Source: Oligoflexia bacterium
Lineage (GTDB): Bacteria > Bdellovibrionota > UBA1018
Direction: 5' to 3'
Assembly (NCBI GenBank): GCA_903935335.1
Contig: CAIZRG010000017.1
Span: 62,001-126,000 of the forward strand
Length of the DNA stretch: 64,000 nucleotides
The translations under genes were made by a program, and so were the position numbers. This document shows, piece by piece, positions 2,483-54,087 of this stretch (positions are counted from its first letter, which is position 1; each line of letters begins with the position of its first letter). The notes below the pieces were generated by a model. That model saw only the letters and a list, made by a program, of their open reading frames with translations, was not told the DNA's origin and ran no database searches.

Positions 2483-2854
2483 TTAATTACCCAAAATACT
2501 TTGAGGACAACGAAAGACTATACCTGTGATAGACACATTCGTTTGTCGTGTACCCCCACCATGCCGACCATAAGAACCAGTTTGACCAGCTCGGTTGGTC
2601 AGCATCACGACAGCATTACCACCCATGTCAACAGCTTTGTTTTTTAAAGTATTTCTTGCTCCTGTTTCCATGTTTTCATTACTTGTCAAACCACCTATAA
2701 AAGCGTTTCCTTGATTGCCAGTTGCTTCACCCAGGTATTTACAACCTTTTGGCTCTGATTGCATGAAGTGAACTTTTTCTGCTCCAGGTTTTAATGGTTC
2801 TGCGGCACAGCCAGTTAACAAAAGCAAAACTGTCCCCATGATGCTTTTTTTCAT
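2483..2854 (-). CDS. Small DUF4156-like lipoprotein
   Basis: 123 residues. The N-terminus is a lipoprotein signal: Lys-rich start, short hydrophobic core, then LLLLTGC, with Cys16 as the predicted acylation site. The body has the pattern seen in DUF4156-type lipoproteins: a GCKYLGEATG segment, a GARNTLKNKA segment and a following GGN. This suggests an envelope protein of unknown role. A strong GGGGGA ribosome-binding site precedes the ATG, matching the one in front of the secreted protein at 25210. The gene converges with the HD-domain gene. Family match is by eye. Confidence 0.7.
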   Translation of the reverse strand: MKKSIMGTVLLLLTGCAAEPLKPGAEKVHFMQSEPKGCKYLGEATGNQGNAFIGGLTSNENMETGARNTLKNKAVDMGGNAVVMLTNRAGQTGSYGRHGGGTRQTNVSITGIVFRCPQSILGN

Positions 2855-22206: not shown

Positions 22207-23142
22207 TTATTTCCAAATATCATCAATGATTGTAGCCGTTTTGTCTTTTTTCCCTAAATCGGATAGCCCAAGAATCTGCTCAGTCGTGGCTAGAGTGCTG
22301 TAATGATCGTAGCATATGCTTGATGCAGATCCTGGATTTACACCCGCTCCATAAAAAACCGGGTAGATTTGATTAGGTGCATCTGTCAGGCTTTCATCAT
22401 AATTAAAAATCACGAGTGTTCCAGTCATAAATGCACTGTTTTTCAGGAAAACGTCAAATGTTTGAGACAACCAACGGTCAGCATATGCAGGCCCTGTATC
22501 GTGACCATCACTTGCAAGATTTGGAACATAAAGACTAAATTCAACCAGATCATTTTTATCTATGTCCGAGGCCAATTGTGATGCTGGCACAATATTTGAG
22601 CACTCAGCAACAGATCCAGTAACATTCTTGAAACTCAAAAAAGGAACATGCTTCCGAACATAGTTTCCGGAAACCATCCCCTGAAAGCAATCTCCAGGAT
22701 AATCTTCTGCATAGACTCTCCACCTTTTTCCAGCTCCCTTCAGAAGGTCTCCAATATGCTGACTATCGAGATTCACTTCATCGTCTCCTGTCACTCCTTG
22801 AGTATCTCCGGAAATTAAAGCAATATAATTAGGTTGTGATGGGTGAGCGACAGCTGAAAATCCAGCAAAGCTAGCGCCATTTTTAGCTAATTCTCCTAAA
22901 TAAGGCTGCGCAGCTGCAACACTAGCATCGACATTCTCCAGCATGATGATAAACACTCTTTTAATCTCCTGCCAACTCAAGGGCGCTTTGAATTCTTCAC
23001 GAGGTTTTCCTTGAGTACACTTGACTTCTAGTCTCTGACTGAAGATGGGAGTCGAGTTGTTTTCTAGTATCTTTTTGGTACAGCCATAAATGGCCCAAAG
23101 TAAAACAACAATGGGACCGATTTTTATTGGGTCTTTACACAT
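22207..23142 (-). CDS. Lipoprotein-like phosphoesterase (acid phosphatase family)
   Basis: 311 residues. A hydrophobic N-terminus ends at WAIYGC, a plausible lipobox. The mature protein has VFIIMLENVDAS, HPSQPNYIALISGD, the central WRVYAEDYPGDCF, NLASDGHDTG and FNYDES, the order of metal-binding segments in the phosphoesterase family PF04185 (acid phosphatases and phospholipase C relatives). It would act in the periplasm or at the surface on phosphomonoesters or phospholipids. The exact substrate is not visible. The gene is convergent with folC, separated by 236 bases in which I see nothing. Confidence 0.83.
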   Translation of the reverse strand: MCKDPIKIGPIVVLLWAIYGCTKKILENNSTPIFSQRLEVKCTQGKPREEFKAPLSWQEIKRVFIIMLENVDASVAAAQPYLGELAKNGASFAGFSAVAHPSQPNYIALISGDTQGVTGDDEVNLDSQHIGDLLKGAGKRWRVYAEDYPGDCFQGMVSGNYVRKHVPFLSFKNVTGSVAECSNIVPASQLASDIDKNDLVEFSLYVPNLASDGHDTGPAYADRWLSQTFDVFLKNSAFMTGTLVIFNYDESLTDAPNQIYPVFYGAGVNPGSASSICYDHYSTLATTEQILGLSDLGKKDKTATIIDDIWK

Positions 23143-23426
23143 GGTATTTAGAATAATTTTAAGTTAGATATAGTGCAATTTTTTTAGTTGATAAATCCCA
23201 TTCGAATCGAAGGAATTTGCTCCATCGAGATCCAGAAACCCTCTAGGATTGGGTCTGAAACTAACCAATACCTGCACCATTCTGTAAAAGACCAGGCCTC
23301 GATACCCTAATCTGATCGGGTTGAAACGAAAAGTGAACTCGTCAAGATAGGATTAAAGGCTCAGTATGTCTCTAGGTCACGTCAAGTGCATATCCAAAGA
23401 CAATCTCTCTAGCACCTTGAAATCAT
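23143..23426. other. Intergenic stretch without recognisable gene
   Basis: This 284-base stretch between the phosphoesterase gene and tRNA-Leu has no open frame with coding character, no repeat and no clear promoter. I see nothing assignable in it. Confidence 0.5.
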
Positions 23427-23512
23427 TGGTGCTCGCGGAGGGACTTGAACCCCCACGCCTTTTGGGCACTGGCTTCTAAGGCCAGCGTGTCTGCCAATTT
23501 CACCACGCGAGC
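23427..23512 (-). tRNA. tRNA-Leu (UAG anticodon)
   Basis: Read on the minus strand: a seven-base acceptor pair GCTCGCG/CGCGAGC, a D-arm, an anticodon stem CTGGC/GCCAG with loop CTTAGAA giving anticodon UAG, a long variable arm (TGCCCAAAAGGCG) as expected for a class II tRNA, and the T-loop GTTCAAGTC. Discriminator A and an encoded CCA follow. All class II leucine features agree. Confidence 0.95.
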
Positions 23513-23611
23513 TTTTTTAAAGTCGTAAACTATTTTCTGAAGATACACAATTTGAATCAGGAAAAATCCTTCATTTTTAACTTTTCCCCTTCACGGATGA
23601 TCTCATGCACC

Positions 23612-24508
23612 CTAAACTTTACGAAATCCCCCCGAATAAAGAATTTCTAGGATTCCAGGACAATGAGCTTCTCCACAGAGAACCAACATAGTCCGATCTA
23701 CAGTCCGCTCGAACCCAAATTTTAGAATTTGGTTTGCCATCACCTGATCACGACGGCGAACCATAGACTCAATCAAAAGATTTTCCCTAGAGGACATTCT
23801 CAACTCATTGAGGAAATACCCAGCAGCACCCAGACCTGAAAAAACTAGGAGACTCTTAGCAAAAGAATGAGCACCTAGGCACTTTGCAAAACTCAAGGTA
23901 GCAGCAAGACTCAGTCCAGTTTTATAAGCAACTTTAAAACGCCGAACTTTTTGGATCAAGGAATCCAAAAAAGTAATCACTTCTACTGGCAATGGGTCGT
24001 AAGACTCAAGAAAAAGTAAGTTTAATGAATGATTCTGTTGAATGGCCCATTCTTCTGGATTTTGAGTAGATGCATCCAAAATCGCAACACCTCTACTTTT
24101 GTCTCCACTCATTTCTTCTTGTTCTTTGAAAAATCGACTCACAGCAACAGTAATTGGACCTGGAAACGATCCAGCCCTATGTATAAAAAATGCTAAAAAC
24201 CAGTCAATAGAACTCAACTCCTTCTGCAGCTCTTCACTCAATTGAATTCCTTCAACACCAATCAGGTGAAAGCTATTCACTAAAACTTGACCACACACAT
24301 ACCTCTCTTGATTCACACTATGCGTCTCCCCGACTAAAACCAAGGCATGAATCAGTCCATCCACCTCTTTTTCAAGAATGGTAACAGGATATTTTCCAAC
24401 TCCAACTGCAAGCTGCAGTGCTTCAAACTGCTCCTGAGAAAGCTCTACAGCAACCGCTGAACTCAGACTAAAAAATATCATAACTACACTGAAAAGATTT
24501 TTTATCAT
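23612..24508 (-). CDS. TraB/GumN-like secreted or membrane protein
   Basis: 298 residues. A Sec-type signal sits at residues 1-20 (ending SSAVA). The first conserved element is LVLVGETHSVNQER. The last is MLVLCGEAHCPGILEIL, preceded by RENLLIESMVRRRDQVMANQI. This paired GE.H ... R..... GE.H.pG pattern resembles the TraB/GumN/TIKI fold, some of whose members are metal-dependent peptidases. A hydrophobic stretch at about 205-230 could be a membrane segment or buried helix. Assignment is by pattern only. It lies just downstream of tRNA-Leu on the same strand order. Confidence 0.6.
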   Translation of the reverse strand: MIKNLFSVVMIFFSLSSAVAVELSQEQFEALQLAVGVGKYPVTILEKEVDGLIHALVLVGETHSVNQERYVCGQVLVNSFHLIGVEGIQLSEELQKELSSIDWFLAFFIHRAGSFPGPITVAVSRFFKEQEEMSGDKSRGVAILDASTQNPEEWAIQQNHSLNLLFLESYDPLPVEVITFLDSLIQKVRRFKVAYKTGLSLAATLSFAKCLGAHSFAKSLLVFSGLGAAGYFLNELRMSSRENLLIESMVRRRDQVMANQILKFGFERTVDRTMLVLCGEAHCPGILEILYSGGFRKV

Positions 24509-24572
24509 AAATAAAAAAATTAATTAATTATAAAACTATAGATATTTAGATGAACCTTTCGTAGTCAGTAAT

Positions 24573-24629
24573 CAATAAAATGTTTTTTGGAGCATGAAGA
24601 TTTAGATTTCGATCCAAAACATTTTATTG
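24573..24629. repeat. Near-perfect inverted repeat downstream of the small secreted protein gene
   Basis: The left arm CAATAAAATGTTTTTTGGA and the right arm TCCAAAACATTTTATTG are complementary except for two extra T residues in the left arm, with a ~21-base spacer. It lies 24 bases beyond the stop of the gene ending at 24653. There is no U-tract after it on the minus strand, so a classical intrinsic terminator is not shown. It could stabilise mRNA 3' ends. Confidence 0.6.
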
Positions 24630-24652
24630 AGCACTCTAGAGCACAGAAGTAC

Positions 24653-25210
24653 TTAACGAGCATTACCAGCACCTCCAACAGGCCCCTTTGGAATTTGAAT
24701 AGAATCGAGTTGATTTTCAAGTTCGTGCTTTTTCTTGAGAGTTGCTTCATCTATAAATTCCTGAGCAATTTGTCTAGGTTCTTTATTCATTTCTTTTTCA
24801 GCATCTTCTTTTAGGATTAACGCTCTTTTTAAAGCACCCCCTGGATCTTTCCCAGTCGCTTGTTCTAGATTACGTAAAATATTTTCAATTTCCTGTATTT
24901 TTTTAGATTTTTTTTCCGTGCAAATCCTGCGCATTGATACAAAATGTTTAGCAAATTTATCAATTAACTCATGCTGAATGTCCTGAATTGGCCTACGATC
25001 AAATGAACTTCCTTTTAAATTTAAAATCCTTTTTTCAATTTCTCGAGCACTTGTTGTAATTCCTTTGCAAGAGCCATCTGCAATTTGATCTCGAAATTTG
25101 TCAATTACTTCTTGTACTTCTGTATTTGTGTATTTTTTTGCAGCTTGGGCAGAAGGAAATTGATTCAACATAATTCCTAAGACCCCTAAAGCAACCCATA
25201 GTTTTTTCAT
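24653..25210 (-). CDS. Small secreted helical protein of unknown function
   Basis: 185 residues from the ATG at 25210. The ribosome-binding sequence GAGGGGGGAT lies directly before it, and a longer frame to 25306 is rejected because it would bury the signal peptide. The signal spans residues 1 to ~24 (MKKLWVALGVLG... ending AQAA). The mature part is highly charged and helical (many KK, EE and IE repeats), with two Cys (in DGSCKG and RRICTE) and a Gly-rich end. I know no family for it. Confidence 0.7.
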   Translation of the reverse strand: MKKLWVALGVLGIMLNQFPSAQAAKKYTNTEVQEVIDKFRDQIADGSCKGITTSAREIEKRILNLKGSSFDRRPIQDIQHELIDKFAKHFVSMRRICTEKKSKKIQEIENILRNLEQATGKDPGGALKRALILKEDAEKEMNKEPRQIAQEFIDEATLKKKHELENQLDSIQIPKGPVGGAGNAR

Positions 25211-25229
25211 AAAATCCCCCCTCATTTTT

Positions 25230-25445
25230 TCATGAATGCGAGTGCCCAGAATTTGGACACCCATGACACCCATGTTGTGTACTCTCCCGTAGATCACCTT
25301 GCCCACCTACAGAAAAACATGAAATTAACTTTTTTTTAGCTTTTGTTTGACATTTTGGACAAATTCCGTTTTCAGCTACATTTGTCGAACTCATTTCTTC
25401 AAATTTTTGGAGACATTTTTCACAATAGTACTCATAAAGTGGCAT
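25230..25445 (-). CDS. FmdB-type zinc-ribbon protein
   Basis: 71 residues from the ATG at 25445, giving the family N-terminus MPLYEYYCEKCLQKFE. Two CxxC pairs (YCEKC and CPKC) form the predicted single zinc ribbon of the FmdB regulatory-protein family. The tail is rich in Gly, Ser and His with two further Cys (HGCHGCPN). FmdB-like proteins are common but their role is poorly known; some are tied to transcription or amidase genes. It ends 20 bases before the start of the secreted protein gene, so the two are probably co-transcribed. Confidence 0.85.
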   Translation of the reverse strand: MPLYEYYCEKCLQKFEEMSSTNVAENGICPKCQTKAKKKLISCFSVGGQGDLRESTQHGCHGCPNSGHSHS

Positions 25446-25513
25446 ATTTATCGATGGCCATAGCTTTCTCGTACCCAAATACCTCAAGACTGTTGTATAG
25501 AAAAGGTCTATGC

Positions 25514-25591
25514 GACCTCGTAGCTCAGCTGGATTAGAGCAGGTGCCTTCTAAGCATCAGGTCGGGGGTTCGAGCCCCTCCGAGGTCGCCA
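25514..25591 (+). tRNA. tRNA-Arg (UCU anticodon)
   Basis: Acceptor pair GACCTCG/CGAGGTC, T8-A9, D-arm GCTC/GAGC with AGCTGGATTA loop, anticodon stem GGTGC/GCATC with loop CTTCTAA (anticodon UCU), five-base variable loop, T-arm around GGTTCGAGCCC, discriminator G, encoded CCA. The cloverleaf is complete. Transcribed divergently from the FmdB gene. No integrase or att-like repeat is beside it. Confidence 0.96.
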
Positions 25592-25725
25592 TTCCTTTCT
25601 CATTATTAGGATGAATCCATCTGGATACCCAATTCAAGTGGTTTTTCAAGTTTCTGCCCATTTTTCATGAAAGAAGGAGTTCTCATGAATTTTAAAAAAA
25701 AATAAAAACTAAAGCCCATCCTAAA

Positions 25726-26928
25726 TTAAACTGATCTGATCAAGAATTGTTGAGAACAGGATCCCATGATACACACACCCTTTCCTCTTCCATCCTCTGA
25801 AACTGGATTCAAAAGACAATTTATTGTCCAAACCCCAATGAATAAATAAGGAATAGCTATCCATTGAACTAGATATGAAATCGTTTTTGAATACTGCCCA
25901 AAAACAACAAGTGAGACTTGAAACGCTATCAACAATCCAACATAAAAAAAGAAAGGTTTTAATACATTCAATCTTTCTTTCTGAGAAGGAATTTCAGCAA
26001 GAATCAAAGGTAAAATAAAAAAAACTGAACTATGAAACTGAGGATGCCCTACCTGAAAAAAAAGGAAAAGGACTAAAGCCATAGCAGCAATTGCTCTATT
26101 CCTGGATACTTTCCCATTCAAATACCTAAAGAGTACAAATCCAGCTCCACAAGACATTAAGGTCTTACTCAGAAAAGATAATATAGCCATGACCTGGTCG
26201 ACAGGTAAAAAAGGCATAAAATCAAAAATTCTTTTTTGAAAAAAATTAAAAATCGATAGCATGGCAGGAGGTCTGTTTGATGCAAACAGCAGAGGATAAA
26301 AAACACTCTTTCCCCAATAAAGGTAAGCTATTTCATACCCAACCACTAAAGTGATAAAGCAGCTCATCAAAAACCTTAGATTCCAGATGATCTGGTTTCT
26401 TCTCAATTCGATCCAAAAAAAAGGTATTAAAAAAATAGGAAAAAATTTCAATAGAATTGCTAAACCAATTAAAATTCCTGAAAAAATTTGCCTTGATTTT
26501 TGAATTTCAACTGCAGCAAAAAAGACAAGAAATGCTACAATTGCATCATGATGACCCCAGGAAACAAATTCGATCCAAAAAAATGGATTCAAAAGAAAAA
26601 ACATCAGAACAAATGGGCGCTCATTTTTATTCCACTGAATACTTAATGCCGCATAAAAAGAAACAGCCAACCAAGCCCCGATAAAGATCATCTTAGGTAA
26701 CAAAACGTGCCAACTATATAGCAGTGCAAATGCATTATGAAAGGGACCATAGGCGTTCGTCGTAGGAACTCCACCTTGAATCCAAGGATCAAGTCCCATC
26801 AGGACATCACTCCATTGCCAACCATAAGCAATGTAGTCATGGCGAGCGCCTAAGAGAAAACCTACAATCAAATACAGAACAGCAAGCAGATATCCAGCTA
26901 CTTTTAATCCAGTGGAGGCAAAATGCAT
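25726..26928 (-). CDS. GT-C type membrane glycosyltransferase (GT87/DUF2029-like)
   Basis: 400 residues with about ten membrane helices. The first extracytoplasmic loop contains DYIAYGWQWSDVLMGLDPWIQGGVPTTNAYGP, and a following SWGHHDAIVAFLVFF and LLKFFPIFLIPFF match polyprenyl-linked mannosyl/glycosyltransferases of the GT-C class. It would transfer a sugar from a lipid carrier in the periplasm. The acceptor is unknown. It follows the broken GT2 gene and the DUF2304 gene on the same strand, a common trio for making and then using a lipid-linked sugar. Confidence 0.72.
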   Translation of the reverse strand: MHFASTGLKVAGYLLAVLYLIVGFLLGARHDYIAYGWQWSDVLMGLDPWIQGGVPTTNAYGPFHNAFALLYSWHVLLPKMIFIGAWLAVSFYAALSIQWNKNERPFVLMFFLLNPFFWIEFVSWGHHDAIVAFLVFFAAVEIQKSRQIFSGILIGLAILLKFFPIFLIPFFWIELRRNQIIWNLRFLMSCFITLVVGYEIAYLYWGKSVFYPLLFASNRPPAMLSIFNFFQKRIFDFMPFLPVDQVMAILSFLSKTLMSCGAGFVLFRYLNGKVSRNRAIAAMALVLFLFFQVGHPQFHSSVFFILPLILAEIPSQKERLNVLKPFFFYVGLLIAFQVSLVVFGQYSKTISYLVQWIAIPYLFIGVWTINCLLNPVSEDGRGKGVCIMGSCSQQFLIRSV

Positions 26929-27015
26929 CGGCTCAAATTAGTTGGGTCAAACAGATTTAGATAGTAAATTCATCCCGACCAACTGTAAAAAGATAAATTT
27001 GCGTGCCCTAGCTCT

Positions 27016-27818
27016 CTATAAAAATAGAGTTCGAATTTGAAGACCGAATAATGCACTCATCACCTTCAAAACAAACTGAACTGATTTGATTCCAGAGATA
27101 GAAGATAAGCCCACTTTTCTTGGACTCATTCGAACCAATGTTTCTACAACACTTAAACGCCTAGCAAGTAAAATGGCAATGGACTCTGCCTCTGGATATT
27201 CATCTGGCATCTGGCTAAGCAAAGTTAAAAATGCGGATCTGGAGTAAACTCGAAGACCTGATGTAGGATCAGTTATTTCCCTGCCTCCAGAAAAAAAGAG
27301 TAAAGGCACTCGAATCAACCAGCCACCTATTCTGCGACTGAGCGTAGTACTCTCAAGTCTTTTAAGAGGCACTTCTTGCGTTATTTTAGGATCCCTCATT
27401 TTAGTGAACTGAGAACCAATGAGCAATTCCATTTTTTCCGTAATGGCTTTTTCTACAAGAGCAGGGATTAACTCAACGGGGTGTTGTCCATCGGTATCAC
27501 ACCGCACTACAAAATCAAAATTTGCTGCATTTGCAATTTTAAACACTGTCATTAACACACCTCAAACCCTAAATTGACCGTATGACTGACATATTACCCA
27601 GGAAAGTGTTTCGCTAAATAATTTTCTGATCCATCTTCTGATCCATCATTAATGATACAGAACTCTAGGTAAACAGGAAATTGCTTTTTCCCAAGCTCTT
27701 GAAGGCGAGAGATCATGCTTGGCAAAGACATTTGCTCATTGTAGCAAGGCAAAGCAACTAATACTCTTGGCAGCAACTTAGACTCAAAAAGCTCAACAAG
27801 CTTCATTTGTGATGACAA
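27016..27818 (-). pseudogene. Broken family 2 glycosyltransferase gene
   Basis: The two halves of one GT2 protein lie in different frames. The first part (27818 to 27594) has LVALPCYNEQMSLPSMI and FCIINDGSEDGSENYL, then a TAA. The same frame beyond the stop still reads VSHTVNLGFE, the usual N.G segment of the family. The continuation is one base out of frame and resumes at GVLMTVFKIANAANFDFVVRCDTDGQHP, with a conserved C-terminal part to 27016. The gene therefore carries a nonsense codon at 27594-27596 and a one-base loss near 27560-27565. The overlap with the upstream DUF2304 gene and all other conserved segments are intact, so the damage looks recent or is a sequence error. Confidence 0.75.
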
Positions 27819-28125
27819 ATTGATTTTTTGCTAAAGAAGATACAAAGTTTCTAAATTTTCTATTTTGCTCTAAAATTTGTGTAGCATGATTTATATTCTG
27901 ATAGAGAAAAAAAAGAGTAAACCCTGATAAAACTAGATTGCTAATAACCTGAATACCTAAAAAATCCGCCAAAGGCCTAAGCAATTTAGGATCAATCCCA
28001 GCAATCAAAAGAAACAATAGAATCATCCACCACTCTAAGGATGATTTTGCTGCTAGTCTTCTTCCAAATTCTGAAATAATCGCAAAAGCGAAGCAAATAA
28101 CAAAAAAAGAAAAAATTAAACTCAC
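27793..28125 (-). CDS. DUF2304-family membrane protein
   Basis: 110 residues. Starts on GTG at 28125. Three hydrophobic helices (residues ~2-20, ~32-48 and ~60-80) are followed by an amphipathic, charged end (ATQILEQNRKFRNFVSSLAK). DUF2304 proteins of this size usually sit next to a GT2 polyprenyl-phosphate sugar synthase, and that is exactly the context here: the gene overlaps the start of the GT2 coding sequence by 26 bases. Function is not established; it may assist the neighbouring transferase. It is transcribed divergently from the GT-C gene at 28182. Confidence 0.75.
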   Translation of the reverse strand: MSLIFSFFVICFAFAIISEFGRRLAAKSSLEWWMILLFLLIAGIDPKLLRPLADFLGIQVISNLVLSGFTLFFLYQNINHATQILEQNRKFRNFVSSLAKNQFVITNEAC

Positions 28126-28181
28126 AACTCCAAATAACTGATTCTTGTGCTAAATTCAACAACTGGAGCAGTGAGACAAAC

Positions 28182-28291
28182 GTGGTAAAAAAAATATTAT
28201 TGCATTTTTTCTTTTTTTTATAGCATGCAGTCAATTTATTTGGTCAACTATAAACCCCATTTTCCAAGCATCAGATGAAGTACAGCACTTC
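28182..28291 (+). other. Out-of-frame N-terminal coding segment of the GT-C gene
   Basis: A GTG at 28182 followed by an A8 tract (28187-28194) and a T8 tract (28212-28219). In the frame of the downstream gene, this stretch reads NIIAFFLFFIACSQFIW, a good first membrane helix, then NPIFQASDEVQHFMM, the Asp-Glu loop expected at the start of a GT-C transferase. No usual start codon lies in that frame, which is closed by a TGA at 28172. One added base in either tract would join the GTG to the gene. This supports a lesion or slippage site, not a gene start at 28292. Confidence 0.65.
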
Positions 28292-29824
28292 ATGATGGCT
28301 AGCTTAATGGATAAATATGGCATTGCATTTTATGGAAATTTAAAAAAACTAGCTGCTCCAGTCAATTGGAAGCTATTTGAAGAATCTTATGATTTTTCCA
28401 ATGATTTTTACCAACAAAAAGGAGTTGTAGGCAATTCAAACGCCCGAGCAAAGTTTAACCCATCTTCTCGATGGGGTATAAAAGAAAGAGAAACTCTTCA
28501 CGAAAGTCCTTTCGATCTAAAAGAAGGAATTGATACAACTCGACATACCACAATGACTTATCCTCCCGGTTACTATCTGATCGCAGGAAAATTCGCTGGG
28601 TTATTCCGTCCATTTAAAATTACTTTAGTTTCTTATCAACATTTAATACGATATTCAGGATTACTGTTTTTCTTGTTTTATCTAGTCATGTGTTGGAAAC
28701 TATTTGCACTTTTAATTTCAGGGAAATCAAAATATTTTTCTTTTTTAGCAGTAGCACTTCATCCAATGGTTGTATTTTTATTCTCAGCAACCAACAATGA
28801 TCTTGGATTGTTGGCATTTGGAGCTGCATTTCTCTATTTAATTGCACTAGTTGCACTTCAAGGATGGAATAGTCTTCGTTTTTTTTCATCAGCTTTAGCT
28901 GGAGCAGCAGCAACCTTAAGCAAAGCGAACGGAATTATTTTTTCTTTGTGTTTTTTAGCAATTCTGGCAGCTTACCAACTGTATCAACGAAAAATTAAAT
29001 CTATTTTTTCTACAATAGGACTGGCTGTAATTGTTACTTTACTCCATTTTTTATTTGTTTGGATAGCAGGAGATTTAAAACTAAATGGTGAAACACACCC
29101 TGTAACTCTTCTCAAATGCCTAAAAATTATTTCTACCCCATTTTCTATGTTTAAAAGCTATTTTGGTTGTTTTTGTTGGTATGAAATATCTTTTTCAAAT
29201 TGGGTTTATGCATTTTATTATAGTTTAATTATTTTTATTACATTTAATCTATTTTTTTCTATGCGGCGTTCAAAGCAAGAAGAAAGACTGAATCCTAATC
29301 ACTTAGTCAATTTAGTTCTATTTTTAGGTTCATGTCTTTTTATTTTATCAATGTATAGTGCTCAGTTTTTCTTAATGAAAAAAGTAGGATTTATTCTCCA
29401 GGGGCGCTATTTTTTACCTACTTTACTTGTATTATATTTGTGGATAGGAGTTTATTTTGAAAAACTATCCTCTTCTCATAACAAATTAAAAAAAATGAAC
29501 CTTGTTACAATACAGAAAACCATACTCATTTTTTTAATCATTTTATCAAACTATGCTCTACTTCTTGTTATCAAGAGACATTACATGAGTCCTGGCGATA
29601 AACTTAGATTTTTATTTAATTCCTCTTATATGGAAATGATATTAAACCGAATGATGCAGTATAAACCAGAATATTTAAAATCTGACTTTGTGTTTACCAT
29701 CGTTTGGACTAGCTATATTCTTTCACAAATAGGAATGTGTATTATTATATCGTTATTTGACAGGAATTTTTTAAAAATCCAACACAAAAACAAGACAGAC
29801 TTCAGCCTATACGTTCCTAGATAA
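28292..29824 (+). CDS. GT-C type (GT39-like) membrane glycosyltransferase, N-terminus out of frame
   Basis: 510 residues as read from the first in-frame ATG. About ten membrane helices alternate with short loops. The TTMTYPPGYYLIAGKFAG segment is the second loop of GT39/PMT-like enzymes, and ALVALQGWNSLRFFSS with LSKANGIIFSLC resembles the same class. The first helix and acidic motif lie upstream in frame but without a start codon, so the product from 28292 would lack catalytic residues. Base composition is distinctly more A+T-rich than the ribosomal block. The 3' end overlaps the convergent GT2-GT4 gene by 18 bases. Confidence 0.7.
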   Translation: MMASLMDKYGIAFYGNLKKLAAPVNWKLFEESYDFSNDFYQQKGVVGNSNARAKFNPSSRWGIKERETLHESPFDLKEGIDTTRHTTMTYPPGYYLIAGKFAGLFRPFKITLVSYQHLIRYSGLLFFLFYLVMCWKLFALLISGKSKYFSFLAVALHPMVVFLFSATNNDLGLLAFGAAFLYLIALVALQGWNSLRFFSSALAGAAATLSKANGIIFSLCFLAILAAYQLYQRKIKSIFSTIGLAVIVTLLHFLFVWIAGDLKLNGETHPVTLLKCLKIISTPFSMFKSYFGCFCWYEISFSNWVYAFYYSLIIFITFNLFFSMRRSKQEERLNPNHLVNLVLFLGSCLFILSMYSAQFFLMKKVGFILQGRYFLPTLLVLYLWIGVYFEKLSSSHNKLKKMNLVTIQKTILIFLIILSNYALLLVIKRHYMSPGDKLRFLFNSSYMEMILNRMMQYKPEYLKSDFVFTIVWTSYILSQIGMCIIISLFDRNFLKIQHKNKTDFSLYVPR

Positions 29825-31831
29825 ATAATTAAAAAATTTAGCAGAAGAAACCAAAAATTGCCTGAGGACACCTTTCAGGCCTTGTGATTTATAATTTTTA
29901 AAGATTATTTTAAGTTCAAAATTCGCTCGATCCCACAGAATAAATTTTCGGTCATTATACATTTCAGATTTTGTTGCCACTAATTTCAGTGGAAAGACGT
30001 ATCCTAAAGGTTTGACTGCATAACAACCCTCCAGGATAGCCTGAAAAGCTTTAAAGCCATTGAGAGAAGAATAAGACAAAGACAATTTTTCTGCCGACGC
30101 ACTTAAGGAATTTACCTCAGTTGAACTCAGGCAAAGTAATTTCTGAATAGCTTCATTGGGTTCAACTGGCTTTGTCACTAAAATACTGTTACTCGAATTA
30201 AAGATTGTATTTGATCCGCCGTTCTGCGTAATAATAGGCACTGCTCCACAAAAAGCAGCTTCAAGCGGAATTAGACCCAACCCTTCATAAAAACTGAAGT
30301 CAGCATAAAACTCAACTTGATTAAACAGAGTTGCCATTCCATGAGAGTCTAAATCCCCGTGAAGAGTAGCAAAACCCTGAGGTAGCTCAAAAGCACCACA
30401 CTCTTTTCCAAAAAGATGAATCTGGTAACCCTGTTTTTTAGCTAAATATAAAAAATTCAAAAGATAACAGGATCCCTTTTCAACAGTAGTTCGGAGACAA
30501 CCTGCAATTGATTTTGGCTGTCTTGTTTTATTTTTTGAGTAATAAACTAAAGGACTTGGTCCCCAAGAAATGTTTTTGATCTTTGCTCTGGGATCAGAAT
30601 AAGCCTGAAGGTATTTATGCAAATACTCTGAAACACAAATAATATCAGAGGCCTCAGAATAAGTTTGAGTCACCGTTTCAAAAAACTGAGCGTTATTAAA
30701 CATTCCTTCTGGTCCTTGAACGAAATAGACATATTTTGCATTTAATTTTTGACTTAATTTTTTTGAAGCTAAAACAGTATTATAATGAGTTGAAAAAACT
30801 AATTTACATTTTTTTATATTTTTCAAACTTCTTAATCTTATTGGATTGAAAGAATGAAATTTTTCAACATAATTTTTATCAATCACTCCTGTGACAAAAA
30901 TATTTGCCTTATAACCTATCGCATTTAATTTTTCAACAAGCTCTACCACAACAGAAATACCACCACTTTTTTCAATCATTGCTGGTAAAACAAATAAAAC
31001 ATCATACTCAAAAGAATCCAACATCCATTTACTAGTTTGCAATTTCAAATCTAATCTAAAAAGCAGATCTTTGTTTTTAGAAAATTTTTTAATCTCTGTT
31101 AAATGAGTTTTTCCCCATCGCTCCATAAAAAAATCAAAATTAGCTTTTCTTTTTGCGTTCAGATCTTCCAATTGAAAAAAACTGCCTGAACCCAAATGAT
31201 GAACCAGTAAATGATCTACAATGACAGAACGATAGCCCAAACTTTTGAGATGATAATGGAGATCAGACTCTTCCCCATAGCCAAGCCCAAAAACTTCATC
31301 AAAAAGGCTTGGACGGTCAATCGCCAAACGCCGAATTGCTAAACAAAATCCAACAGCTGTACAAGCTTCTGGATAAGTAGGTTGAAAAAAATTGAAAATG
31401 TGATCCAAATCTACCCAACTATGTCCAGAAGGGATTCGAACTGTTAAATTCGCAGCAGACGTAGAAAAAGGAGTGGCTAAAGCAATTTTAATGTCAGTTT
31501 CAAATGGTTGAAGCATTCGTGGAAGCCAGTTTTTTGGAACCAGAATATCAGAGTTAATCAAAATGCACACATCAGCAGAACTGGCATTAAACAATCGATT
31601 ACAATTTTTAACAAAGCCTACATTCTGCTTATTTGTGATAACACGTAATCTAAAAGAAGATCTCAGTCGAAATGACTCAATGACTGACTGAGTTGAAGGA
31701 TCACTCCCATCATCCCCTACCAAAAGCTCATTGACTTGATCAGGATCCGTATGCGCAACTAAACTTTCAAGAAAATTGAGTAATAAATTTGGACTATTAT
31801 AAACTGGTAACAGAAGATCGGCTTTTATCAT
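29807..31831 (-). CDS. Two-domain glycosyltransferase (GT2 + GT4)
   Basis: 674 residues. Residues 1 to ~250 are a GT2 domain: ADLLLPVYNSPNLL, ELLVGDDGSDPSTQ, ITNKQNVGFVKNCNRL, the metal motif ILINSDILVP, and a GYGEESDLHYHLKSLG acceptor loop. A linker of ~30 residues follows. From ~285 the second part is a GT4 fold: LFVLPAMIEKSGGISVVVELVEKL at its start, FVQGPEG, and near 530 the nucleotide-sugar site YEGLGLIPLEAAFCGAVPIIT. One protein probably adds two sugars in turn, on the cytoplasmic side, to a surface glycan. The downstream GT-C gene on the other strand and the upstream methyltransferase support a glycan role. Confidence 0.87.
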   Translation of the reverse strand: MIKADLLLPVYNSPNLLLNFLESLVAHTDPDQVNELLVGDDGSDPSTQSVIESFRLRSSFRLRVITNKQNVGFVKNCNRLFNASSADVCILINSDILVPKNWLPRMLQPFETDIKIALATPFSTSAANLTVRIPSGHSWVDLDHIFNFFQPTYPEACTAVGFCLAIRRLAIDRPSLFDEVFGLGYGEESDLHYHLKSLGYRSVIVDHLLVHHLGSGSFFQLEDLNAKRKANFDFFMERWGKTHLTEIKKFSKNKDLLFRLDLKLQTSKWMLDSFEYDVLFVLPAMIEKSGGISVVVELVEKLNAIGYKANIFVTGVIDKNYVEKFHSFNPIRLRSLKNIKKCKLVFSTHYNTVLASKKLSQKLNAKYVYFVQGPEGMFNNAQFFETVTQTYSEASDIICVSEYLHKYLQAYSDPRAKIKNISWGPSPLVYYSKNKTRQPKSIAGCLRTTVEKGSCYLLNFLYLAKKQGYQIHLFGKECGAFELPQGFATLHGDLDSHGMATLFNQVEFYADFSFYEGLGLIPLEAAFCGAVPIITQNGGSNTIFNSSNSILVTKPVEPNEAIQKLLCLSSTEVNSLSASAEKLSLSYSSLNGFKAFQAILEGCYAVKPLGYVFPLKLVATKSEMYNDRKFILWDRANFELKIIFKNYKSQGLKGVLRQFLVSSAKFFNYLSRNV

Positions 31832-31916
31832 AAAGTCATTTTAATTTATTATTTCTCAATGCTTTTTACTTCAAAAAAATCGTCTAAAACTTGATTTAAA
31901 CATTAGATTTTAATAA

Positions 31917-32792
31917 TCACTGTTTACACTTTATGTAGCGAATCACACTTTTCACTCTGCTTTTGATAAAACCCAAAAAACTTCTACTCTCCTCTAAAAG
32001 ACGAGAATATTCTTTGACTTGTTGAGTTAATTGGTTTACCTGATCTTGAGTTCGTCTTAAATCCGGCTGAAGCTCTTCAGATATTCTTTTTTTCGCAGAA
32101 TAACATTCAAAAAGCAACAAGTAGATATATGAAAGTTCAAATTGAACATCATCTTTTGCCTCAAGCAATTCTGAAAGCAACTCAATTTTTTGAGCAGACT
32201 CAGGATTTAAAAATAGAACGCCAAGACCCCAGCCCTGAAGAAATGAAAAGGTGGGATATTTTTTTGACAGCTCTTCCCAGAGCTTCCAAACTCCAAAATC
32301 ATCATGGCGAACTACGATATCATGGAATAAAATAACCCCCTGCTTAGACATCTTAGGTAGCCAAGTTTCAAAATCATGTTTTACAGCTTCATAAGTATGC
32401 AATCCATCAATATGTAGTAAGTCGATGGTCTCATCTGAAAACTGTTTTAAAAAATGATCAAACTGACCTCTGAGCAGATAAGCAAATTGCTGATAATATT
32501 GATCCCGATGGCGAAGAACAGCTTGATAAATATCTTCCCCATAAAATCCTGAATGCTTATCTCCTTCCCATGTATCAATTGCATAAGCAGTACAGGAGAT
32601 TTGATTTTCAGCAATGCTTTGGCAAAAAGAAAAAAAGGACTCCCCTTGGTGAGTTCCAAGTTCAACCAATATTTTTGGCTTTAGACTGGCAACTAAATCA
32701 TATGCAAAAAAAACGTGTTGAGACCATGCTCCTATTCGAAAAAGTCGAGGTGAGTACTGCATCGACTTAAAATACATAGACATAAAAGCCAC
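31917..32792 (-). CDS. SAM-dependent methyltransferase with C-terminal coiled coil
   Basis: 291 residues. The N-terminal ~200 resemble Methyltransf_24/CmcI-like enzymes: ILVELGTHQGESFFSF (SAM-binding), AYAIDTWEGDKHSG, TIDLLHIDGLHTYEAVKHDF and GVILFHDI. After ~205 the protein becomes helical and charged, with a likely coiled coil at about 235-270 (QPDLRRTQDQVNQLTQQV) and a basic end. Such enzymes often methylate sugars or cap glycan chains and the coiled coil can act as a ruler, but that is inference. It lies directly upstream of the GT2-GT4 gene on the same strand. Several near-adjacent Met codons make the start uncertain. Confidence 0.78.
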   Translation of the reverse strand: MAFMSMYFKSMQYSPRLFRIGAWSQHVFFAYDLVASLKPKILVELGTHQGESFFSFCQSIAENQISCTAYAIDTWEGDKHSGFYGEDIYQAVLRHRDQYYQQFAYLLRGQFDHFLKQFSDETIDLLHIDGLHTYEAVKHDFETWLPKMSKQGVILFHDIVVRHDDFGVWKLWEELSKKYPTFSFLQGWGLGVLFLNPESAQKIELLSELLEAKDDVQFELSYIYLLLFECYSAKKRISEELQPDLRRTQDQVNQLTQQVKEYSRLLEESRSFLGFIKSRVKSVIRYIKCKQ

Positions 32793-53418: not shown

Positions 53419-54087
53419 CTATATTCTCGCACTGATAGAAAACATCCAGCTTGAAGTCTTACCAGAGACTTCATTGTTTCTGTTGTTGTCGGTCTCATTA
53501 AGAAAAGAAGAGTAGGAAGATCTCATGTACTCCACATTTGCAGAGAGAAAAGGTAAAAATCCATATCCAGCTCCTAACTTAAAAGATTCTCCAGAGAAAT
53601 TCGCCACGTAGTGATCATATATTTGAGTAGATGACCAGTAAAACCAATTTGTTCTCAAGTGATCATAGAAATTATATCCGATCCAAAATCGCAAAGGAAT
53701 GACTGGCAGCTTAATCCCTGCCACAAGACCTACGGTCATTTTAATTGTATAATCGTCAGTCATGTGGTCAATTCCATACCCAGTCAGGGTTTCTATATAT
53801 TGATAACTTGGAGAATATTTGAAACTTGAATAAGAAAATTCAGGACCCAAGAAAATCACATCATTATAGTCCACCAAAAACCGTGTGCCGAACCCCAACC
53901 CATTCAGAGTTCCCATATCCATTTGTTCACCTGCTGGGTTAGCTGCCGTAGGAGGATTTAGATCAAAAGATCCCGCCGTGTATACCAAATAAGGTTCAGC
54001 GAATACACTCACATCCGAAGAATAAGCCCCCAGACTAAAAAAGAAAAAATAAAAAATTCCAAAAAAAATTTTTTTAGGTTTTATCAT
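53419..54087 (-). CDS. Outer-membrane beta-barrel protein (paralogue 2)
   Basis: 222 residues, signal peptide to about residue 23 (FSLGAYSSD). Shares with paralogue 1 the blocks AEPYLVYTAGS, LNGLGFGTRFLVD, LGPEFSYSSFKY, VAGIKLPVIPLRFWIGYNFYDHL, FKLGAGYGFLPFLSANVEYMRSSYSSF and a WMFSISARI end, the last aromatic-rich strand. The loops between blocks differ in length and sequence, as expected for exposed loops of a barrel. The ligand or role is unknown. Confidence 0.8.
   Translation of the reverse strand: MIKPKKIFFGIFYFFFFSLGAYSSDVSVFAEPYLVYTAGSFDLNPPTAANPAGEQMDMGTLNGLGFGTRFLVDYNDVIFLGPEFSYSSFKYSPSYQYIETLTGYGIDHMTDDYTIKMTVGLVAGIKLPVIPLRFWIGYNFYDHLRTNWFYWSSTQIYDHYVANFSGESFKLGAGYGFLPFLSANVEYMRSSYSSFLNETDNNRNNEVSGKTSSWMFSISARI

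Follow-up and report, generated by a model that had tools for sequence, protein, structure and literature searches.

A sugar-decoration locus most likely in decay, with a GT-C glycosyltransferase gene whose best start is one base out of frame

We analysed a window of 64 kb (the whole stretch of DNA, 64,000 nucleotides) from a 2.61-Mb draft genome that consists of 59 contigs and is 94% complete. The closest named matches to its rpoA are from metagenome assemblies labelled Bacteriovoracaceae, Oligoflexia or Bdellovibrionales, with 78-86% identity to the first six named matches. Several glycosyltransferase genes form a block beside rplQ at 22-33 kb of the window (22207-32792), and the GC content is 31% at 28-30 kb versus 40% in the whole window. 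Among 80 rpoA loci from other genomes, we found no match (E <= 1e-6) to ten sequences from this block, in which the GT2 gene was entered as two pieces, and 77 rplQ matches; many of these loci are short and are thus a weak guide to the rarity of the block's location. The part of the block that concerns us contains the following features.

25726-26928, minus strand: GT87 glycosyltransferase gene, an intact neighbour (PF09594, E 2.9e-8)
27016-27811, minus strand: GT2 gene resembling polyprenyl-phosphate-sugar synthases, broken
27793-28125, minus strand: gene for a small DUF2304 (GacJ-like) membrane protein, divergent from the GT-C gene (PF10066, E 1.5e-10)
28165-28175, plus strand: Shine-Dalgarno-like GGAG..GTGAG, pairing with a 2-base bulge and ending 6 nt before GTG 28182
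28175-29824, plus strand: stop-free frame of 549 codons for a GT-C glycosyltransferase (DUF2142-like / PMT_2-like)
28182-28223, plus strand: GTG-started ORF of 13 codons in another frame, ending with TAG at 28221-28223 and having the best ribosome-binding site
28187-28194, plus strand: A8 tract, containing an A_AAA_AAA heptamer in the GTG frame
28193-28291, plus strand: stretch of the body frame ahead of ATG 28292 that encodes the first transmembrane helix and the acidic DEVQH motif
28212-28219, plus strand: T8 tract, overlapping a T_TTT_TTA heptamer (28214-28220) that is in the GTG frame and abuts TAG 28221
29807-31831, minus strand: two-domain GT2+GT1 glycosyltransferase gene, intact and convergent with the GT-C gene

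The GT2 gene is interrupted twice. An in-frame TAA occurs at 27596-27594, past which the frame runs on as YVSHTVNLGF, and a separate one-base frame change lies between 27566 and 27561. Both lesions are outside homopolymers. The two parts of the gene match PF00535 at positions 2-49 (N-terminal half) and 74-164 (C-terminal half). The genome has 15 PF00535 matches, two of which are these halves; the other 13 of 13 have no internal stop. The C-terminal half also weakly matches PpgS, a model of polyprenyl-phospho-GalNAc synthase, with an E-value of 3.4e-6 and a score far below the model's cut-off. We regard the gene as that of a probable lipid-linked-sugar donor synthase, judging by these family matches.

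An intact counterpart occurs in a genome of the same family (G008, locus L137, 958-2019), where a single ORF of 353 residues encodes both DUF2304 and GT2. This ORF is 39, 43 and 46% identical to the three pieces in the window. It has FPGQFCTHAANIGVSGALLTGFKIA at the place of the GT2 lesions, with Gln at the position of the window's TAA. In the window, DUF2304 and GT2 are instead encoded in separate, overlapping frames. PF10066 has no second match in the genome beyond the DUF2304 gene at 27793-28125. The breakage of this GT2 gene, adjacent to the DUF2304 gene, had been missed by the initial annotation.

The GT-C frame opens at 28175, directly after a TGA (28172-28174). Ahead of the Met at ATG 28292 its translation is DKRGKKNIIAFFLFFIACSQFIWSTINPIFQASDEVQHF. 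This upstream part of the frame has no ATG, GTG or TTG, but has two ATT codons, at 28196 and 28199, and the GTG at 28182 is one base out of frame with the GT-C body. The frame arrangement is therefore as initially annotated, and the A8 and T8 tracts are also present as described. A stretch of 39 stop-free codons is weak evidence for coding when taken alone (P about 0.11 in an order-1 Markov model of local composition). Codon usage in the window gives the body frame a score of +5.9 bits over 28187-28291, versus -4.6 bits for the third frame and -4.8 bits for the GTG frame past its own stop.

The family of the GT-C protein is recognizable at a distance. A weak match to PMT_2 (PF13231) covers residues 154-286, with an E-value of 8.9e-4 and a score of 19.9 bits that is below the curated Pfam cut-off of 26.1 bits. 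A direct search of the genome with PF09913 (DUF2142) yielded no match at E <= 0.1. The same search identified DUF2142-type proteins in other genomes, and local BLAST against these found colinear matches at loci L005 (E 7e-10), L006 (1.7e-8) and L008 (3.8e-6), E-values that come from a very small database searched without composition correction; identity to these three is only about 22-26%. A profile built from the alignment of these three with the GT-C sequence (genomes G000, G055, G336 and G338) matched 8 of 368 genomes of the phylum, and thus added G005, G218, G116 and G324. The likeness to DUF2142 proteins, which is colinear in both local and profile matches, comprises helix 1 followed by DE..H, and a QGRY..P close to the C-terminal third.

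The DE..H motif follows helix 1 in all six relatives with a readable N-terminus: DEPAH in L005, DEIGH in L008, DEPAH in L036, DEFVH in L037, and DEQSH and DEFTH in two ORFs of L038. This count leaves out L006, which is cut at a contig end, and L039. The family motif in all six is strong evidence that the sequence ahead of 28292 (NIIAFFLFFIACSQFIW...ASDEVQH) is a real part of the protein, and a start at ATG 28292 would lose helix 1 and the acidic motif. The initial annotation had likewise assigned this helix and ASDEVQH to the gene. Homologues beginning at the Met of ATG 28292 and lacking the motif would have spoken against that assignment; the homologues keep the motif.

More similar sequences were not found. 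There is no close GT-C orthologue in the 58 genomes of the class (the genome itself included), none in the 368 genomes of the phylum, where three other matches are short and weak, and none in genome_contigs, viral_contigs or plasmids. Solved structures gave no match, and no close homologue shares the frame transition: by reading, a usual in-frame start precedes helix 1 in L008, L036, L037 and the L038 ORF opening at 1327 but not in L005, and the L038 ORF that opens at 2 is truncated by the edge of its locus. A single-sequence AlphaFold2 model had a mean pLDDT of 44 and was not used.

By its ribosome-binding site, GTG 28182 is the best predicted start. Its anti-Shine-Dalgarno pairing energy, calculated with a consensus sequence, is -9.1 kcal/mol. 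This value is attained by 8 of 38 gene starts in the window, and GTG 28182 equals or surpasses 30 of the 38, although these starts are mechanical first starts of ORFs and some are wrong. A value of -8 is attained by 3.4% of 352 random NTG sites. The distance from this GTG to the DE is ~31 residues, which fits L008 and L037 (about 28-34, by reading). The proposal that GTG 28182 is the natural start of the gene thus gains from its ribosome-binding site.

Ordinary translation could instead begin with AUU at 28196 or 28199. ATT is listed as a start in NCBI table 11, and such starts are rare in general. The DUF2142 gene at L005, from the same class, offers a parallel: at about 2697-2730 (minus strand) it has no ATG, GTG or TTG before helix 1, and the stop of the gene preceding it shares bases with an in-frame ATT. 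However, the L005 gene could begin at a TTG inside the helix. The pairing energy is -2.9 kcal/mol for each ATT, a weak ribosome-binding site, and -1.7 kcal/mol for ATG 28292. An AUU start would also give an N-terminus without the usual lysines. We therefore consider it quite improbable.

The two homopolymers led the initial annotation to suggest a gene that is switched off by slippage, a gene rescued by slippage or a sequencing error. We found 34 A/T runs of 8 or more in the 64-kb window. Of these, 27 are inside stop-free frames of other genes, 3 are in the GT-C frame and 4 are outside any frame; the host frames were picked mechanically at >=100 codons, and not all need be genes. By reading of the sequences only, the host genes include serS, secY, clpP and folC. 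A/T runs of at least 7 occur within the first 60 bases of 7 of 67 mechanically defined genes. Lysine codons followed by phenylalanine codons naturally give such runs. The occurrence of an A8 and a T8 within 110 bp has P about 0.003 in a local order-1 Markov model, which favours the initial annotation, but similar clusters are also found in intact genes of the window. One of these, at 53419-54087 (minus strand), has an A7 then a T8 within 30 bases at its start and an intact frame, and serves as a control for the argument from tracts.

A mixed population, in which replication slippage at A8 or T8 has turned the GT-C gene OFF and other cells have it ON, would suit a surface-glycan enzyme with homopolymers near its start. 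Glycan genes are among the known phase-variable genes. Most such genes encode surface-exposed products (PMC3711429). Slipped-strand variation calls for a tract of unusual length, whereas this length is not unusual for the genome: eight-base tracts are commonplace, and some of the 34 are in essential-looking genes. The two lesions in the neighbouring donor synthase are outside any tract, and no second state was seen, with another close copy in 0 of 368 genomes of the phylum; the 57 others of the class include none from the same genus. The suggested OFF state is thus left without specific support, and we judge it highly improbable.

A consensus or assembly error, with start and body in one frame in the real genome, is also unlikely. 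A single homopolymer base is a classic error, the genome is a 59-contig draft whose nearest named relatives are metagenome assemblies, and a lone frameshift that homology confirms frequently reflects an error or a pseudogene (PMC3711429). However, of the other long A/T runs, 27 lie in stop-free frames of other genes and none of these breaks the frame, a control that is one-sided in that frame-breaking runs would tend to drop off the list. Moreover, the stop codon and the non-homopolymer shift in the adjacent GT2 gene are not homopolymer errors. The suggestion of a sequencing error, which would fit one homopolymer base, is weakened by these observations.

Slippage on A8 or T8 could rescue the GT-C gene at a reduced level, either through transcripts of altered run length or through a -1 ribosomal shift at A_AAA_AAA or T_TTT_TTA. 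Its product would join the GTG start to the body frame and have a lysine-bearing N-terminus. The GT-C body frame is intact, and the well-bound GTG lies just before two slippery heptamers, both in the correct frame for programmed -1 frameshifting. There are precedents. Interrupted genes can be rescued by transcriptional slippage, for example Citrobacter rodentium tssM1, with about 20-25% frameshifting on an A11 run (PMC4256274), and eight As have been proposed to support productive slippage in some IS elements (PMC1088944). The resemblance is that an A-run separates a valid start region from an out-of-frame body. The differences from tssM1 are that its run is 11 bases long and the run here a short 8, and that the putative start here is only a few codons before the run.

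Other observations make such a rescue unlikely. PMC1088944 reports that many bacterial genomes show evident selection against A/T runs once these reach nine bases. Runs of eight abound in the window, and strong slippage on them would harm many genes. We found no downstream stimulatory RNA structure (z about +0.5 and +0.45), and the adjoining, putatively donor-making GT2 is broken. As to where the frame changes, codon usage scores the body frame at 5.7 bits over 28193-28222 and the GTG frame at 1.6 bits over 28182-28220. This mildly favours the A8 tract as the candidate site, but the two scores cover segments that do not coincide and the contrast is weak; we make no claim.

A more elaborate possibility, which we consider very improbable, is that the GT-C gene is kept at low expression by a combined start and slippery site that acts as a throttle on surface glycosylation. 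Here, A_AAA_AAA would lie within the first four codons of GTG and T_TTT_TTA.TAG nine codons later, and the membrane enzyme would arise only from shifted ribosomes or slipped transcripts. If slippage rescue were true, it would be a frame-shift throttle at translation initiation, which would be unusual.

The locus resembles a known type of module. In such modules, a lipid-linked sugar is made by the GT2 enzyme GacI with the DUF2304 protein GacJ, and a membrane protein then transfers it (PMC8327497, PMC8035078). Like GacI-GacJ-GacL-type systems, the window has GT2 and DUF2304 genes that adjoin a GT-C gene. Unlike them, it has a broken GT2 and a GT-C start that is out of frame; the TAA and the frame change mean that the intact donor synthase of such a module is missing. 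Those systems are from Gram-positives, whereas the nearest relatives of this genome are Bdellovibrio-type and Oligoflexia assemblies.

We think that the locus is probably a small, degenerating locus for extracytoplasmic glycan decoration of the GacI/GacJ/GT-C type, in which the GT-C start has also gone out of frame. Going by family knowledge, GT2 and its DUF2304 partner would load a sugar onto a lipid carrier, and the GT-C enzyme, through the DE motif of the first extracytoplasmic loop that follows helix 1, would transfer the lipid-linked sugar to an acceptor on the outer side of the membrane. In the GT2 gene, a nonsense codon and a one-base shift interrupt the reading frame, and in the GT-C gene the ribosome-binding site serves a start that is offset from the body by one base. 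Normal translation from GTG 28182 would yield only a peptide of 13 residues, and a start at ATG 28292 a protein that lacks both helix 1 and the acidic motif. As is typical of a pseudogene or null allele, homology spans the disrupted frame and the best start is out of frame. Most likely, the GT-C gene would be a null or nearly null allele that was fixed, or is rising, after loss of the donor synthase. The two GT2 lesions, being outside homopolymers, point to decay of the locus, and decay of the module accounts for the disruption of both GT2 and GT-C.

Some observations argue against decay. The 549-codon GT-C body is undamaged while the shorter GT2 has two lesions, which speaks against long neutral decay. 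The donor could come from another GT2 enzyme of the genome, no damage is apparent in DUF2304 or the flanking glycosyltransferases, and the GT-C gene has no close orthologue by which to gauge selection. On balance, ordinary decay of a sugar-decoration locus, and not an on/off switch, is the most likely account of the GT-C and GT2 genes, and the initial annotation is supported only in part, the most likely biology being ordinary. The significance of this result is mainly one of correction: a gene model started automatically at ATG 28292 would describe an enzyme that lacks its acidic motif, and the broken donor-synthase neighbour would be overlooked.

A promoter scan gave two overlapping sites versus 1.6 expected, which is uninformative. 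A perfect 15-bp inverted repeat (28102-28116 / 28204-28218) flanks the divergent DUF2304 and GT-C starts. We rejected it as an invertible switch: by hand from the coordinates, neither gene would be in frame after inversion, and both repeat arms are poly-T/A rich in phenylalanine codons.
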